Origin: a virus
Direction: 5' to 3' (one strand)
IMG/VR virus record: IMGVR_UViG_3300008117_006295
Span: 1-64,000 of that record
Length of the DNA: 64,000 bases
The stretch's first letter is position 1. The number at the start of each line of letters is the position of its first letter. The notes under the pieces were generated by a model. It was not told the DNA's origin, did not search any database, and saw only the letters and a program-made list of their open reading frames with translations. A program made the position numbers and the translations under genes. This document shows positions 30,915-36,782 of the stretch, piece after piece.

Positions 30915-30927
30915 AAATAAAAATAAT

Positions 30928-31968
30928 ATGATAATAACTTATTTAAGAAGTTCTAGTTATGGCACTCATTCTATGTGTGAGCAGCAATATTTTATAGAAT
31001 ATGTTCTTGGATTAAAAAGTCCATCAAATAAAAAAGCAGACAAAGGCACAATATGTCATAAGATATTAGAAATTTTAGCAGATATTAAGCTAGCTATTCA
31101 AAGCGATAAAACAATAATTAATGATGATATTGTTGGTAAATTAGATATTAATAATTATGATCTAAATAAAATTTCAGAACAAGTATATAAATATTATACT
31201 TCTCAATTTACTCACCATAAATGGGAATCTAAAGATCAAAAAGATTGTATTAATTGGGTTAATAAAGCTTTAACTTATAATAATGGTATGTTTGATCCTC
31301 GCAATAGAGAAATAGTACAATCTGAACAAAGATTTGATATTGAAATTAAAAAAGAATGGTCAAAATATGAATACGATTTGAATGGTGAGATAATCAAAGG
31401 TAATCTTGCTATAAAAGGAACTATCGATTTAATAACTAAGGTTAATGATTCTACTTTAGAAATAATTGACTGGAAAACTGGTCGTAGATTAGATTGGGCC
31501 ACTGGAGAAGAAAAAACTCATGAAAAATTACAGAATGATCCACAGTTAAGAATGTATCATTATGCTGTTAGTCATATCTATCCTCAATATGATCATATAA
31601 TGGTAAGTATTAATTTTATTAATGATGGTGGAGTATTCTCTATATGTTATGATAAAAGCGATTTACCAAAAACCGAAATGATGTTGTGTAAAAAATTCGA
31701 AACAATCAAAAAGAGTAATCGTCCTATTTTAAGTAAATCATGGAAATGCAATAAACTTTGTCATTTTGGTAAAACTACTTTCCAAGATTCTCACGTTCTT
31801 CCTATATTAGAGTATAGAGAAAATCAATTAGTACCACAAGGTAATTTTATGACCAAGTGCGAACAAATAAAGCATGATATCGATCTCAAAGGTATAAAAA
31901 GCGTTGTTGACGAATACACAACTCCGGGCTATACTGTAGGACACTACAAGTCTCCGGGAAGCACCTAA
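30928..31968 (+). CDS. PD-(D/E)XK nuclease, RecB/Cas4-like
   Basis: 346 residues from the ATG at 30928; the longer version overlaps the kinase gene by 59 bases with no support. Signature elements: SYGTHSMCEQQYFIEYVLGL (start helix with Cys and a Tyr-rich stretch), KGTICHKILEIL (GxxxH), AIKGTIDLIT, EIIDWKTGRR (catalytic D/E-x-K) and a QLRMYHYA motif. Such enzymes process DNA ends in recombination or repair. A CNKLCHFG segment late in the protein could be part of an Fe-S cluster but is not conclusive. Confidence 0.8.
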   Translation: MIITYLRSSSYGTHSMCEQQYFIEYVLGLKSPSNKKADKGTICHKILEILADIKLAIQSDKTIINDDIVGKLDINNYDLNKISEQVYKYYTSQFTHHKWESKDQKDCINWVNKALTYNNGMFDPRNREIVQSEQRFDIEIKKEWSKYEYDLNGEIIKGNLAIKGTIDLITKVNDSTLEIIDWKTGRRLDWATGEEKTHEKLQNDPQLRMYHYAVSHIYPQYDHIMVSINFINDGGVFSICYDKSDLPKTEMMLCKKFETIKKSNRPILSKSWKCNKLCHFGKTTFQDSHVLPILEYRENQLVPQGNFMTKCEQIKHDIDLKGIKSVVDEYTTPGYTVGHYKSPGST

Positions 31969-31973
31969 AATTT

Positions 31974-33848
31974 ATGAATTATTCAGTACTACATTGTCAT
32001 TCTATGCATTCTTTATTGGACGGGTTAAGTAAACCAAGTTCTATAGCAGATAGGTGCGTAGAAATTGGTGTTAAAGCATGCGCATTAACTGATCATGGAA
32101 ATATTTCAGGCGCTGTTAAATTTTATTCGGCTATGAAAAAAGCAGGAGTAAAACCTATCTTAGGATGCGAATTATATATTTGTGATCAAGATGCATCAAT
32201 TAAGGACGCATCCAATAAAAAACTAAGCCATTTTTTAGTATTGGCCAAAAATCTTCAAGGATGGAAAAGTCTGGTCCGTTTAGTTTCAGAGAGCAACAAC
32301 CCTGATCTTTTTTATTTCAAGCCACGCCTCAATCTGGAGCGCCTAGAGAAGTATTGTCGAGGTAATCTGATAGGAGTCTGTGGTCATCTTGGGTCATACT
32401 TGGCCGATAAGATTTTGGATGATAAAAATGAACTAATTCCAGATTATCTTACCGTTGGTATTGAAGCAGTTAAAAAATTGCATTCTATATTTGGACCAGA
32501 AAATGTATTCTTGGAATCACAACTTATTGATCAAGAAAATCTTCCTTGTCAGGTTATTTTAACAAATGCTATTAGAGAAATTGGTAAAAAGACAAATACC
32601 AAAATTATAGCAACTCCAGATGCTCATTATGCTAGGCGTAGTGATGCTGTTGATCAAAGAATTTTATTATGTACTAATCTCAAAACCACATTACCAGAAA
32701 TTAGTAGAAAAATCAGCAATAATGAAGATGTTCCAATGGGATGTTTTTTCTTGTCAGATAACTATCATATTCCATCTTATGATGAATTGATAGAGCTGCA
32801 CCCTGCTGAAGAATTAGAGAATACTAATTTGGTAGCCTCTATGATTGAAGACTATAATATTTTAAGTAAACCAAGGCTACCGCCATTTTCTTGTCCAAAA
32901 GGCTACGATCCTGATACATACTTAAGACAACTATGTAGAAATGGTTGGAAACAAAAAATAGCTAATATAGTACCAAAACATGATCATCAACAATATACTG
33001 ATCGTATCAAATACGAATTAGAAGTTTTACAAGGTGCGGGATTATCTAGTTATTTCTTGATTGTACAAGATGTTGTTGATTATGTTCGTAAACAAAATTG
33101 GCTTCCCGGTCCTGGAAGAGGAAGTGCTGCTGGATGTTTGGTATCTTATTTGATAGGTATAACAAGCATTGATCCAATAAAATACGGATTAATTTTTGAT
33201 AGATTCTATAATGCTGGTAGAAATACAGCTGATCATATTTCTATGCCAGATATTGATGTTGACGTTCCTATTAATAAAAGAGAATATGTAATTGAATATA
33301 TTAAAAATAAATACGGGGCAGATAAAGTCTCTCAAATGGTTACATTCAATACGATGAAGGGAAGAGGCGCTCTCAAAGATGTTTTAAGAGCATATGGAAA
33401 TATTACATTTGATGAAATGAATAAAATAACTAAAAATATTCCTGATGAAGCTAAAATTGCTGATGAACTACAAGAAATGAAAGAAGAAACCGGGGAAGCA
33501 TCTATTATTAGATGGGCATTAGAAAATAAGAGCGATGACTTAAGAGAATGGTGCTATATAGATGATAATAATGAATTACAAGGACCACTTGCAAAACGTT
33601 TCGAACAAGCTATTAGATTAGAAGGCACAAAAACAAACCAATCTAAACATGCTGCTGGTATTGCGATCAGTAGTATGCCATTGGGAGAATGTTGCCCCAT
33701 GGTTTACGATACAAAAAATGATAAACCTATTGCAGGAATGGAAATGCAAGATCTAGAAAGTATCGGAATTATTAAGTTTGATATACTCGGCGTAGCAATG
33801 TTAGACAAAATTATGTTTATTGAAGATTTACTTTTACAAGGAGCTTAA
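31974..33848 (+). CDS. dnaE: DNA polymerase III alpha subunit, N-terminal part (PHP and palm)
   Basis: 624 residues. Starts with a PHP domain whose metal ligands look intact (HCH at 7-9, TDHG about 38-41, GCELYI about 62, PDAHY about 215). The polymerase palm follows, with the catalytic pair PDIDVDV (about 425-431) and the third Asp in KFDILG (about 602). It stops 18 residues later, at the palm-finger junction, at TAA 33846-33848. The fingers, tau/beta-binding and OB-fold parts are encoded by the gene at 34714. Together the two parts total about 1160 residues, the length of E. coli DnaE. Confidence 0.9.
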   Translation: MNYSVLHCHSMHSLLDGLSKPSSIADRCVEIGVKACALTDHGNISGAVKFYSAMKKAGVKPILGCELYICDQDASIKDASNKKLSHFLVLAKNLQGWKSLVRLVSESNNPDLFYFKPRLNLERLEKYCRGNLIGVCGHLGSYLADKILDDKNELIPDYLTVGIEAVKKLHSIFGPENVFLESQLIDQENLPCQVILTNAIREIGKKTNTKIIATPDAHYARRSDAVDQRILLCTNLKTTLPEISRKISNNEDVPMGCFFLSDNYHIPSYDELIELHPAEELENTNLVASMIEDYNILSKPRLPPFSCPKGYDPDTYLRQLCRNGWKQKIANIVPKHDHQQYTDRIKYELEVLQGAGLSSYFLIVQDVVDYVRKQNWLPGPGRGSAAGCLVSYLIGITSIDPIKYGLIFDRFYNAGRNTADHISMPDIDVDVPINKREYVIEYIKNKYGADKVSQMVTFNTMKGRGALKDVLRAYGNITFDEMNKITKNIPDEAKIADELQEMKEETGEASIIRWALENKSDDLREWCYIDDNNELQGPLAKRFEQAIRLEGTKTNQSKHAAGIAISSMPLGECCPMVYDTKNDKPIAGMEMQDLESIGIIKFDILGVAMLDKIMFIEDLLLQGA

Positions 33849-33849
33849 A

Positions 33850-34032
33850 ATGGCAACGGTAGAATTCAAAGACTTGGCAGAAGGAGCAGAGTTTATTTAC
33901 AATAGTATACAGTATAAAAAAATTCCTGTTATCAAAGTAAGTTGTTGTACATCCTTGAATGCAGAGAATATTACTGATTCTAATAAAAAAATTATGATTA
34001 GACCACTAGAAAAGGTTGAAGTTAATGAATAA
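33850..34032 (+). CDS. Small conserved phage protein inside the split polymerase locus
   Basis: 60 residues from the ATG at 33850, with AGGAG about 7 bases before it; the longer frame to 33820 is within the polymerase gene. It is a small beta-rich protein (FKDLAEGAEFIYNSIQYKK, CCTSLNAENIT). It lies between the two polymerase halves and may assist their association, but nothing in the sequence proves this. Confidence 0.5.
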   Translation: MATVEFKDLAEGAEFIYNSIQYKKIPVIKVSCCTSLNAENITDSNKKIMIRPLEKVEVNE

Positions 34033-34714
34033 TAACAAAATTTGCGTTTTTGATTTCGAGACAGATGGATCAAATCCAGATTTCTGTAGTCCTGTACAAA
34101 TAGCTGCTGTAATGATAGATCCGGTTAGTTTAGAAATTATTGATGGTTCAGAATTTAATGTAAACTTTAAACCAGAAGTGATAGAACAGAATGAAAATTA
34201 TGAATATACAACTGATATCTTAGATTTTCATGCTAAAGTTAGAGGATGTTCAAAAGCCGATATTCTAAAACAGTGGCAACAATATCCTAAACAAGAATAT
34301 AGTTGGCAATTATTTATTAATTATTTACAGAATTATCATACTAGAAGTAGTCGCAAAAGTCAATTTAGCGCCCCTATTGCCGCTGGATATAATATACATA
34401 GATTTGATCTTCGTATTATAGAAAGACTTAGCTCAAAATATAATAATCTAAATAAAGAAAATCGATCAGATATCTTTTATCCTCGTGATACATTAGATAT
34501 AATGGGACTAATGTTTTATTGGTTTGAAGCAAGTAATGAACTCAATAGTTATTCTTTAGATACTGTGAGAGAATACTTTGGTATTAGTGGAGAGGGTGCT
34601 CATGATGCACTAAAAGACGTTAAAGATTGTGCGGAAATATTAACGAGATTTATGAAACTACATCGTAATCTTTCATCGAAAGTAAAATTTAAAAATTCAT
34701 TTTTGGGAAAATAA
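34025..34714 (+). CDS. dnaQ: DnaQ-like DEDDh 3'-5' exonuclease (epsilon-type)
   Basis: 229 residues from the ATG at 34025, in an 8-base overlap with the small gene before. Exo I CVFDFETDG with Asp10 and Glu12, Exo II AAGYNIHRFDLRI, Exo III HDALKDVKDCAEIL with the general base His and the last Asp. A proofreading exonuclease. Its position between the two polymerase genes strongly suggests it works with the split polymerase. Ends in a TAATG overlap with the second polymerase gene. Confidence 0.88.
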   Translation: MNNNKICVFDFETDGSNPDFCSPVQIAAVMIDPVSLEIIDGSEFNVNFKPEVIEQNENYEYTTDILDFHAKVRGCSKADILKQWQQYPKQEYSWQLFINYLQNYHTRSSRKSQFSAPIAAGYNIHRFDLRIIERLSSKYNNLNKENRSDIFYPRDTLDIMGLMFYWFEASNELNSYSLDTVREYFGISGEGAHDALKDVKDCAEILTRFMKLHRNLSSKVKFKNSFLGK

Positions 34715-36324
34715 TGTCTAAAAATTTACAATTTAATTGTGGATGTTCTTTTAAAATCAATGATAATAGTATCGAATTTAATCCTAATATTGAAACTATT
34801 AATTTAGATTGTCAAAAAACTTGGGATTTAATTAGCGATGGTAATACTAAGGGATGTTTTCAATTAGAAAGCAGACTTGGTAGGTCGTATGCTAAAAAAC
34901 TTAAACCAGAAAATGTAGAACAGCTTTCTGCATTAATAGCAATTATTAGACCAGGATGCTTGGAGTCTTTTAAAGACGGTAAGAGTATTACCCAGCATTA
35001 TATAGATATTAAAAATGGACAAGAGTCTATTGATTATCTACATCCATCATTAGAGCCAATATTAAAGACAACATATTCTCAAATGATTTATCAAGAGCAG
35101 GCGATGCAAATAGCAAAAGATATCGCGGGATTTAGTTTGCAAGATGCTGATTCTTTAAGAAAAGCTATCGGTAAAAAACTTCCAGAAGAAATGGCAAAAA
35201 TTAAAACAAAATTTTTAGAAGGATGCAAACAAAGTAAAGTTGTTGACGAAGCAACTGCCGAACAAATATTCGGCTGGATTGAAAAAAGTCAAAGATATAG
35301 CTTTAATAAATCCCATTCTGTATCATATGCGATGAATGCTTATTTATCAGCATATGCTAAGGCCCATTTTCCGAAAATCTTCTTCTCCTCTTATTTGTCT
35401 TTTGCTAAAGATAAAGTAGATCCACAAGATGAAATTAAGGAATTAATCCAAAATGCAAATGAGATGGATGTTGATGTAAGAACGCCAGATCTTAGAAATC
35501 TAAATAGATTTTTTCTATTAAAAAATGATAAGATTTATTTTGGACTAACAGATATAAAAGGTGTTGGTCAATCAGTTTTTGATAAAATAGTTTCAATTGT
35601 TAAAGAGTCCCATATTCATCTAGATACTGCCTGCTGGTATAAAATACTATTTAAATTATTGGTTAATATTAATTCTACAGCAGCAAAAGCATTAATACAA
35701 AGTGGTGCCTTGGACTATCTTAGTAAACCAAGACAAACAATGCTCTATGAATTTAATACTGTCAGCAATCTTACAAAGAAAGAAATAGAACACGCTCTTA
35801 ATTATACCGTAGAAAATACTAGCCTAATAATTATTCTAAATAAATTAATAGGAAATAGTAAGATTAATAAAAAACGTAAAGAAAATCTTGAAAATTTGAT
35901 TTATAATCTTCAACATCCTCCTCATTCGTTGAGTGATCAAGCTGAATGGATATCTGATTGTGAATATACTTTATTAGGATATTCTATATCTTGTAGTAAG
36001 GTTGATCTTTATGATATAAGTATGACAAATACTTCTTGCCGTGACTTTAAAAATGGTATTAATAATCAAAAATTAATTATGGGTGGAGAAATAACTGGTT
36101 GTAATGTTACCCAAACCAAAACTGGTAAAACAAAAGGATCAGATATGGCTTTTGTAACATTACAAGACAATACTGGTGCTGTAGACTCAGTAATATTTTT
36201 TCCAGAAACATATAAAAAATATCGTAATATTTTATTTGCAGGACATGTTATTATAGTGCAGGGAGCACGATCAAAAACTGGAGACTCGTTCATTGTTGAA
36301 AAAGCTTATGTGGCAAGATCTTGA
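34714..36324 (+). CDS. dnaE: DNA polymerase III alpha subunit, C-terminal part (fingers to OB fold)
   Basis: 536 residues. After a 33-residue N-terminal part with NCGCSFKIN it picks up the DnaE line at LDCQKTWDLISDGNTKGCFQ and continues with IAIIRPGCLESF, YSQMIYQEQAMQIA, the fingers, RYSFNKSHSVSYAM (about 193-206), then helix-hairpin-helix/beta-binding parts (IKGVGQSVFDKIV) and an OB-fold near the end (about 446-536). All catalytic Asp are in the other gene, so this protein is not active alone. FNKSHS is uninterrupted, which rules out the cyanobacterial split-intein site. Followed by the ssb promoter, whose -35 begins inside its last codons. Confidence 0.88.
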   Translation: MSKNLQFNCGCSFKINDNSIEFNPNIETINLDCQKTWDLISDGNTKGCFQLESRLGRSYAKKLKPENVEQLSALIAIIRPGCLESFKDGKSITQHYIDIKNGQESIDYLHPSLEPILKTTYSQMIYQEQAMQIAKDIAGFSLQDADSLRKAIGKKLPEEMAKIKTKFLEGCKQSKVVDEATAEQIFGWIEKSQRYSFNKSHSVSYAMNAYLSAYAKAHFPKIFFSSYLSFAKDKVDPQDEIKELIQNANEMDVDVRTPDLRNLNRFFLLKNDKIYFGLTDIKGVGQSVFDKIVSIVKESHIHLDTACWYKILFKLLVNINSTAAKALIQSGALDYLSKPRQTMLYEFNTVSNLTKKEIEHALNYTVENTSLIIILNKLIGNSKINKKRKENLENLIYNLQHPPHSLSDQAEWISDCEYTLLGYSISCSKVDLYDISMTNTSCRDFKNGINNQKLIMGGEITGCNVTQTKTGKTKGSDMAFVTLQDNTGAVDSVIFFPETYKKYRNILFAGHVIIVQGARSKTGDSFIVEKAYVARS

Positions 36325-36348: not shown

Positions 36349-36398
36349 ACGTTACAAAGTGTTTGGTTTTGGTTTTAACTTTTTTAGGAGATAATTAT

Positions 36399-36782
36399 AT
36401 GAATTTAGTTATTTTAAAGGGTAATTTGGCTAGAGATCCTGAATTAAGGATGGTTGGTGGCGAAAAGCAAACAGCCGTTGTTAATTTTTCCATTGCTGTT
36501 AACCGTGAATTTATACGAGCAAATGGAACTCTAGATAAGATTACAAGTTTCATTTCTTGTGAAGCCTGGGATAGCGGAGCAGAAGCGATTGCAAAGGCTT
36601 TAAAGAAGGGTGATCTAGTTCTAGTTGAAGGATCACTAAGAAATGATAGCTGGGAAAAGGATGGAGTAAAGCATAGTACTATTAAGGTTAGGGTAAATAA
36701 TTTTGCTCCATTAGCAAAAGCTCGCAGCAAATCAGCGTCAAGCGAAAGCGATGCTGATGTAGAAGAAACAGTATCGTTCTAA
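36399..36782 (+). CDS. ssb: Single-stranded DNA-binding protein
   Basis: 127 residues from the ATG at 36399, with AGGAG (36386-36390) 8 bases before it; a TTG-started longer frame is not supported. Classic SSB OB-fold: MNLVILKGNLARDPELR, VVNFSIAVNREF, SFISCEAWDSGAEAI, KGDLVLVEGSLRNDSWEKDG, then an acidic C-terminal tail (SSESDADVEETVSF) like the partner-binding tip. It coats single-stranded DNA at the fork. With its own promoter and terminator it can be expressed at a high level, separate from the replication operon. Confidence 0.92.
   Translation: MNLVILKGNLARDPELRMVGGEKQTAVVNFSIAVNREFIRANGTLDKITSFISCEAWDSGAEAIAKALKKGDLVLVEGSLRNDSWEKDGVKHSTIKVRVNNFAPLAKARSKSASSESDADVEETVSF

Follow-up and report, generated by a model that had tools for sequence, protein, structure and literature searches.

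The window analysed in this study, which spans bases 1 to 64,000 of a 77,131-base IMG/VR virus record (IMGVR_UViG_3300008117_006295), encodes the alpha subunit of DNA polymerase III (Pol III) in two separate genes, with a small open reading frame (ORF) and the gene of a DEDDh 3'-5' exonuclease (EXO) located between them. It is highly probable that the replicative polymerase of this phage is a DnaE-like alpha subunit of the C family, settled by evolution into two polypeptides, which would assemble non-covalently with EXO. An earlier note on this DNA had proposed a permanent two-polypeptide polymerase, and the proposal is strongly supported: the split is conserved throughout the clade, both halves are under purifying selection and keep intact active-site residues, one polymerase is present per genome, and the junction carries neither intein nor intron. 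As far as we know, a conserved split without an intein would be a first for C-family polymerases.

ORFs were taken from the sequence, domains were assigned by Pfam and phage families by phrog. Four co-directional ORFs, namely the N half, a 60-aa ORF (S60), EXO and the C half, lie between the genes of a PD-(D/E)XK nuclease and a single-strand binding protein (SSB), with the following features:

31974..33848, + strand: PolIII-alpha N half, 624 aa, PHP, palm and thumb with all three catalytic Asp (Pfam PHP, DNA_pol3_alpha; 2hpi 6-635)
33246..33263, + strand: catalytic motif PDIDVD, N-half residues 425-430 (sequence)
33774..33791, + strand: KFDILG with the third catalytic Asp, residue 603 (sequence)
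33850..34032, + strand: S60, predicted 60-aa SH3-like barrel protein with an SCCxxxNA motif (AlphaFold2; weak PDB matches)
34025..34714, + strand: DEDDh 3'-5' exonuclease EXO, 229 aa, best start ATG 34025 (Pfam RNase_T, phrog_192)
34714..36324, + strand: PolIII-alpha C half, 536 aa, fingers, HhH and OB fold (Pfam; 2hpi 641-952; AlphaFold2; Foldseek)
34738..34746, + strand: Cys-Gly-Cys in the N-terminal beta-hairpin extension of the C half, residues 9-11 (family alignment; model)
about 35302..35319, + strand: FNKSHS, uninterrupted in the window's C half (sequence)

Domain organization of the two halves and position of the break

The N half contains the Pfam domains PHP and DNA_pol3_alpha, the latter complete to the end of its profile (260/260), and the C half contains DNA_pol3_finger and HHH_6 with a weak OB match. 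Both halves match phrog_405 in succession (42-608, then 622-1069, of 1190), and they tile the chain of a solved Pol III alpha subunit (2hpi) with no overlap, the N half over 6-635 and the C half over 641-952 plus a weak OB stretch, which places the break in the loop between the last catalytic strand of the palm and the fingers. The C-family order of PHP, pol-beta-like palm with three catalytic Asp, thumb, fingers, HhH and OB is present, spread over two genes. KFDILG in the N half of the window is followed by exactly 18 residues and the stop codon, and the tail after KxDxLG measures 16-27 residues in 193 relatives. These results agree with the earlier note, in which the gene at 31974 was said to end 18 residues past the third catalytic Asp motif at the palm-finger junction, the gene at 34714 to resume at the fingers and end at the OB fold, a DEDDh exonuclease and a 60-residue protein to lie between them, and the break to fall upstream of the cyanobacterial split-intein site FNKSHS, which is found inside the C half. 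The claim that the two halves sum to a normal DnaE (624 plus 536) holds for length, as the 1160 aa equal the length of E. coli DnaE, but not for content, as the C half stops at the OB fold, past which no part of the solved chain is matched. The C-terminal region of E. coli DnaE beyond the OB fold is the tau-binding region, and the E. coli enzyme also has a clamp-binding motif.

The C half opens with about 35 residues that precede the fingers and are predicted by AlphaFold2 to form a beta-hairpin (strands at C-half residues 4-6 and 12-16) with a conserved Cys-Gly-Cys, both Cys being present in 50 of the 54 family rows and the remaining 4 rows being gaps. The hairpin is missing from the branch of L108, L111, L113, L117 and L123, and is therefore not essential in all members. 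The AlphaFold2 model of the C half has a mean pLDDT of 90.2, and Foldseek matched it to the Mycobacterium tuberculosis (Mtb) DNA polymerase 7pu7 (TMq 0.67 over 530 columns) as well as to the whole alpha subunits 4iqj and 2hpi.

Conservation of the split among relatives

IMG/VR was scanned with either half as seed and the loci with both halves were counted; a half used as query would also retrieve an intact gene, so the search was not blind to fusions. All 258 loci with both halves are split at the palm/fingers junction and none is fused, with the gene order always N-(60 aa)-EXO-C, and at least 151 of these loci are distinct by C-half sequence. The conservation in other viromes that the earlier note had raised is hence clade-wide, and no single intact gene occurs among the relatives. 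Identity among split relatives goes down to about 42-52%, and the marine members (L126 and kin), with about 51% N-half and 44% C-half identity, are still split. Both halves co-occur in nearly every locus long enough for both, and the window sequence is identical in two further IMG/VR records from other samples (L002, L003). One might suspect an error of sequencing or assembly, a frameshift artefact, or a pseudogene in decay while an intact polymerase is encoded at another place, as fragmented C-family polymerase sequences in bacterial genomes are mostly frameshifts and some of them errors (PMC3919608), and L025, whose N half is broken in overlapping frames, resembles a frameshift case. Such an origin is effectively refuted by the pieces being in different frames with two other genes between them, by the identical independent records and the split in 258/258 relatives, and by the low dN/dS (0.03-0.04) and single polymerase per genome described below.

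Entire genes separate the pieces in L034, L040, L042, L101 and L117, with both halves kept, and the interval from EXO to the C half contains as much as 3.6 kb of other genes in some relatives, including those for ThyX and DUF1559 proteins. The DUF1559/prepilin-type genes of L040 (4593-5570) and L042 (4893-5873) lie beside ThyX in this interval; such genes are presumably typical of Planctomycetota, and they offer a lead to Planctomycetota as possible hosts of the phage family. When genomes were scanned for bacterial hosts or prophages of the clade, the matches listed were bacterial DnaE alone, at about 36% identity or less.

Selection, active sites and number of polymerases per genome

The median dN/dS is 0.040 for the N half, 0.030 for the C half and 0.026 for EXO, indicating strong purifying selection on both halves. 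The N-half residues D426, D428, D430, K601 and D603 are invariant in 45/45 rows, and QEQ, R149, GKK and FNxSH of the C half are invariant in 54/54 rows. Exactly one fingers domain was detected in each of 16 relative records (56-231 kb), in which no family A or B polymerase was found, and the window's 77 kb record has one PF07733 match.

The residues of the PHP metal site (H7, H9, D16, H41, E66, H86, H138, E181, D216 and H218; window 31974-32640) are nearly invariant, and the PHP domain may be an active second nuclease. This would suit an explanation in which the halves do not form one enzyme, one of them having a separate role (e.g., the N half as PHP nuclease or regulator) with the host polymerase being used, and the clamp family PF02768, which has no match in the window's record, could be read in the same way. 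We regard this explanation as improbable, since the palm catalytic residues and the checked finger residues are all invariant, the halves stay together in nearly every locus that could hold both, and they adjoin genes for the exonuclease, SSB, a DnaB-like helicase and a Toprim-domain protein.

Inteins, introns and mobile elements

No Pfam intein domain was matched in the halves of the window and no Rfam intron in the locus, in gathering and permissive scans alike. The N-half tail of 16-27 residues leaves no room for an N-intein, and the ORFs abut or overlap, with no room for an intron core; the N, EXO and C ORFs of L165 overlap. The statement of the earlier note that no intein pieces are seen at the break is accordingly confirmed. 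A joining of the halves after all, through a trans-splicing cryptic split intein or through RNA splicing of an intron that holds the EXO gene, gains some credit from the inteins found elsewhere in the same genes (GPGRG|S in L007, L013 and L207; MRPG|C in L116 and L196; FNK|SH in L199), but is very unlikely given the short tail, the negative Pfam and Rfam searches, the abutting or overlapping ORFs and the stretches of other genes, up to 3.6 kb, between EXO and the C half in some relatives.

Differential patterns of further breakage were observed among the relatives, such as a split intein that breaks the N half at GPGRG|S in L007 (3050-6123), L013, L017 and L207, where the N piece ends LVEVK, the C piece ends GVHN|S, a free-standing PD-(D/E)XK-like nuclease gene lies between, and PF14890 was matched in L007; a cis intein, in frame and bearing an HNH-like motif, at MRPG|C in the C-half fingers of L116 (9736-12000), L121, L196, L207 and L208; and a split intein that breaks the C half of L199 (8663-11688) at FNK|SH, near the site of the cyanobacterial DnaE intein, the pieces being separated by a LAGLIDADG ORF (PF14890 and LAGLIDADG_3 matches). 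The N half of L071 (3131-6130), L075 (3045-6116), L076 and L078 is itself divided over two genes: the break falls directly ahead of PDID, a LAGLIDADG gene separates the pieces, and the palm piece gains a conserved N-terminal stretch; no intein match was found at the pre-PDID break of L071, L075 and L078, and these four loci possibly encode a three-piece polymerase. As judged from sequence, the polymerase genes of the relatives are repeated targets of mobile elements. The two genes may plausibly have arisen through loss or replacement of an element at the palm/fingers loop, with EXO left in the gap.

The exonuclease and the 60-residue protein

The EXO gene lies between the two halves in every locus with both, and the DEDDh motif (D10, E12, D128, H193, D198) is invariant in 20/20 relatives. 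The AlphaFold2 model of S60 is a small beta-barrel (pLDDT 95.3); among PDB structures it is matched best, though weakly (E of 0.02 or higher), by SH3-like domains from eIF5A and EF-P, and 28 of 58 S60 members match phrog_2183, a family of unknown function. The marine branch (L126 and kin) has no S60 ORF, which speaks against S60 being a required bridge. The suggestion of the earlier note that the 60-residue protein might bridge the halves is weakened by this absence and by the eIF5A/EF-P-type barrel. EXO, the other bridge suggested in that note, is always encoded between the halves and may have such a role. In L117 (8507-11095), an 862-aa RCC1-repeat protein is encoded between the S60 ORF and EXO and appears to contain an S60-like CCPVNA segment.

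Phylogeny and other split phage polymerases

In the tree, the split sequences group together with full SH-aLRT support, and the stem of this group measures 1.05 changes per site. The cultured Rossellomorea phage phiT1 (L210, PV767480) has its alpha subunit as gp20/gp18, split at the same palm/fingers loop as the clade and likewise with a small ORF (49 aa) between the halves, but it has no exonuclease between them and shares 34% identity with the clade. In the tree phiT1 sits with intact polymerases, nearer Firmicutes-phage and bacterial DnaE; a single origin of phiT1 and the clade was not rejected by the AU test (p = 0.25), and a separate origin of the phiT1 split is favoured. No relatives of phiT1 gp20 were found in IMG/VR by scan.

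Polymerases broken elsewhere were also observed in Tenacibaculum phage Larrie and Cellulophaga phiST (L132, L133), where Pol III alpha is in two adjacent genes with the break upstream of PDID; an intein-like reading, by eye, of the conserved first-piece tail in these Cbastvirus members was rejected, having no Pfam support. Bacillus phage G (L383, 237500-251000) has Pol III alpha in three annotated genes, gp329, gp331 and gp339, with the homing endonuclease gp330 between gp329 and gp331 and a cis intein at GPGRG|C in gp329. Pseudomonas phage Y1 was rejected as an intact relative, as its record is UNVERIFIED and the gene has RNase HII-, lpxB- and acetyl-CoA carboxylase-like ORFs around it, which we read as bacterial DNA; some MT83xxxx fecal records were likewise read as bacterial DNA and given no weight. 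In L134 (OQ572403) and L211 (MT835501), dnaE is found among lpxB-, rnhB- and pfkA-like housekeeping genes, and both are probably bacterial DNA.

Neighbouring genes

The genes that directly flank the four ORFs in the window are as follows:

30925..31968, + strand: PD-(D/E)XK nuclease, directly upstream of the N half (Pfam PDDEXK_1)
36393..36782, + strand: single-strand binding protein, directly downstream of the C half (Pfam SSB)

The PD-(D/E)XK nuclease is the upstream neighbour of the N half in most relatives, and the SSB gene is found downstream of the C half in the freshwater branch. A RecA-like protein, a DnaB-like helicase and a Toprim protein are encoded upstream of the polymerase genes (Pfam), and the locus is therefore considered a replication cassette. 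The PD-(D/E)XK nuclease gene upstream of the polymerase in L075 (1135-3126) seems to contain an in-frame intein (ending YIPTHN|T). A minus-strand frame of more than 4000 codons runs off the end of the window's record (L135, 2051-14131; record bases about 65051-77131).

Proposed assembly of the polymerase

Association of the two halves is expected because neither alone makes a complete polymerase, the catalytic Asp being in one gene and the fingers in the other. The N half supplies PHP, palm, thumb and the three catalytic Asp, the C half supplies fingers, HhH and OB, and the break falls in the palm-fingers loop, a place at which domains can come apart. Both halves and the DEDDh exonuclease would be made side by side from overlapping, probably translationally coupled genes and would assemble non-covalently into one polymerase-exonuclease core, to which EXO would bind in the manner of epsilon in Pol III. 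In the window, the EXO stop and the C-half ATG share bases (TAATG), and most relatives show a like overlap, of 4, 8 and 1 nt in 59, 39 and 10 of about 140; these overlaps suggest coupled translation. A further idea, which we hold to be possible but rather doubtful, is that EXO at the broken junction holds or regulates the palm-fingers interface in an obligate multi-subunit replicase, proofreading and polymerase assembly being one event, and that the branches of L071, L075 and L078 broke the palm half too, giving a three-piece polymerase.

Several points weigh against a two-polypeptide enzyme assembled in this way. The association and activity of the halves are deduced from conserved active sites, and no isolate of the clade was found. 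The pairwise distances of N, C and EXO correlate (r = 0.96), and shared descent alone gives the same. The overlap counts given above depend on taking as start codon the ATG nearest the upstream stop. A second full-length polymerase, the finding by which the earlier note would have been overturned, was absent from the 16 relatives (families A, B and C) and from the 77 kb record in searches for families C and A, PolB not having been searched there, and none of the clade records searched reached a rating of 90% complete, which leaves room for a second polymerase in the missing sequence.

One would not expect a replicative polymerase to tolerate a break easily, yet a C-family replicase is kept in two genes across diverse large aquatic phages. 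The break shows where Pol III enzymes are divided in nature, a position of use for building split or controllable versions, and it allows study of how essential genes come to be broken by mobile elements while their pieces go on working. For annotation and polymerase surveys, which are prone to rejoin or discard fragments, it is a warning that some fragments are real subunits.

Comparison with known systems

The bacterial Pol III alpha of the DnaE type (E. coli, Taq, M. tuberculosis DnaE1) has the same domains, order and catalytic residues as the clade, and its fold is matched by the C half; the clade differs in having two genes, no C-terminal domain beyond the OB fold and a CGC beta-hairpin extension at the break, and its identity to N-terminal parts of bacterial DnaE is about 36% at best among the matches listed. 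Fractured genes with split inteins were reportedly described by Dassa in 2009, and this layout is seen in L007, L013, L207 and L199, whereas the palm/fingers break itself is without intein pieces. In the cyanobacterial split DnaE (Ssp/Npu), the C-family alpha subunit also comes from two genes, but its break is further downstream at CFNKSHS and the parts are rejoined by a trans-splicing intein (PMC3919608), unlike the intein-free palm/fingers break of the clade; the polymerase survey in the same paper rejoined or discarded fragmented sequences.

In the literature searched, which did not extend to subscription papers, no description was found of a split C-family phage polymerase, or of any conserved C-family split free of inteins. 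Permanently split phage replication enzymes that must reassemble are represented by gp43A/gp43B of the T4-like Aeromonas phages 25 and 44RR, where gene 43 (family B polymerase) is split, and by the split NrdA of phage Aeh1, which is fully functional, according to PMC2988022, where homing-endonuclease insertion is given as a route to the split and, in the text consulted, no exonuclease gene is reported in the gap, unlike in the clade. These enzymes are a family B polymerase and a ribonucleotide reductase, whereas that of the clade belongs to family C. The PolB of Methanothermobacter thermautotrophicus, as mentioned in PMC7776575 (citing Kelman 1999), is similarly a replicative polymerase made of two polypeptides, but it is archaeal and of family B. 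Like a permanently split polymerase, which is recognized by two stable genes across relatives and no intact copy, the clade has two stable genes in all its loci with both halves and no intact copy.

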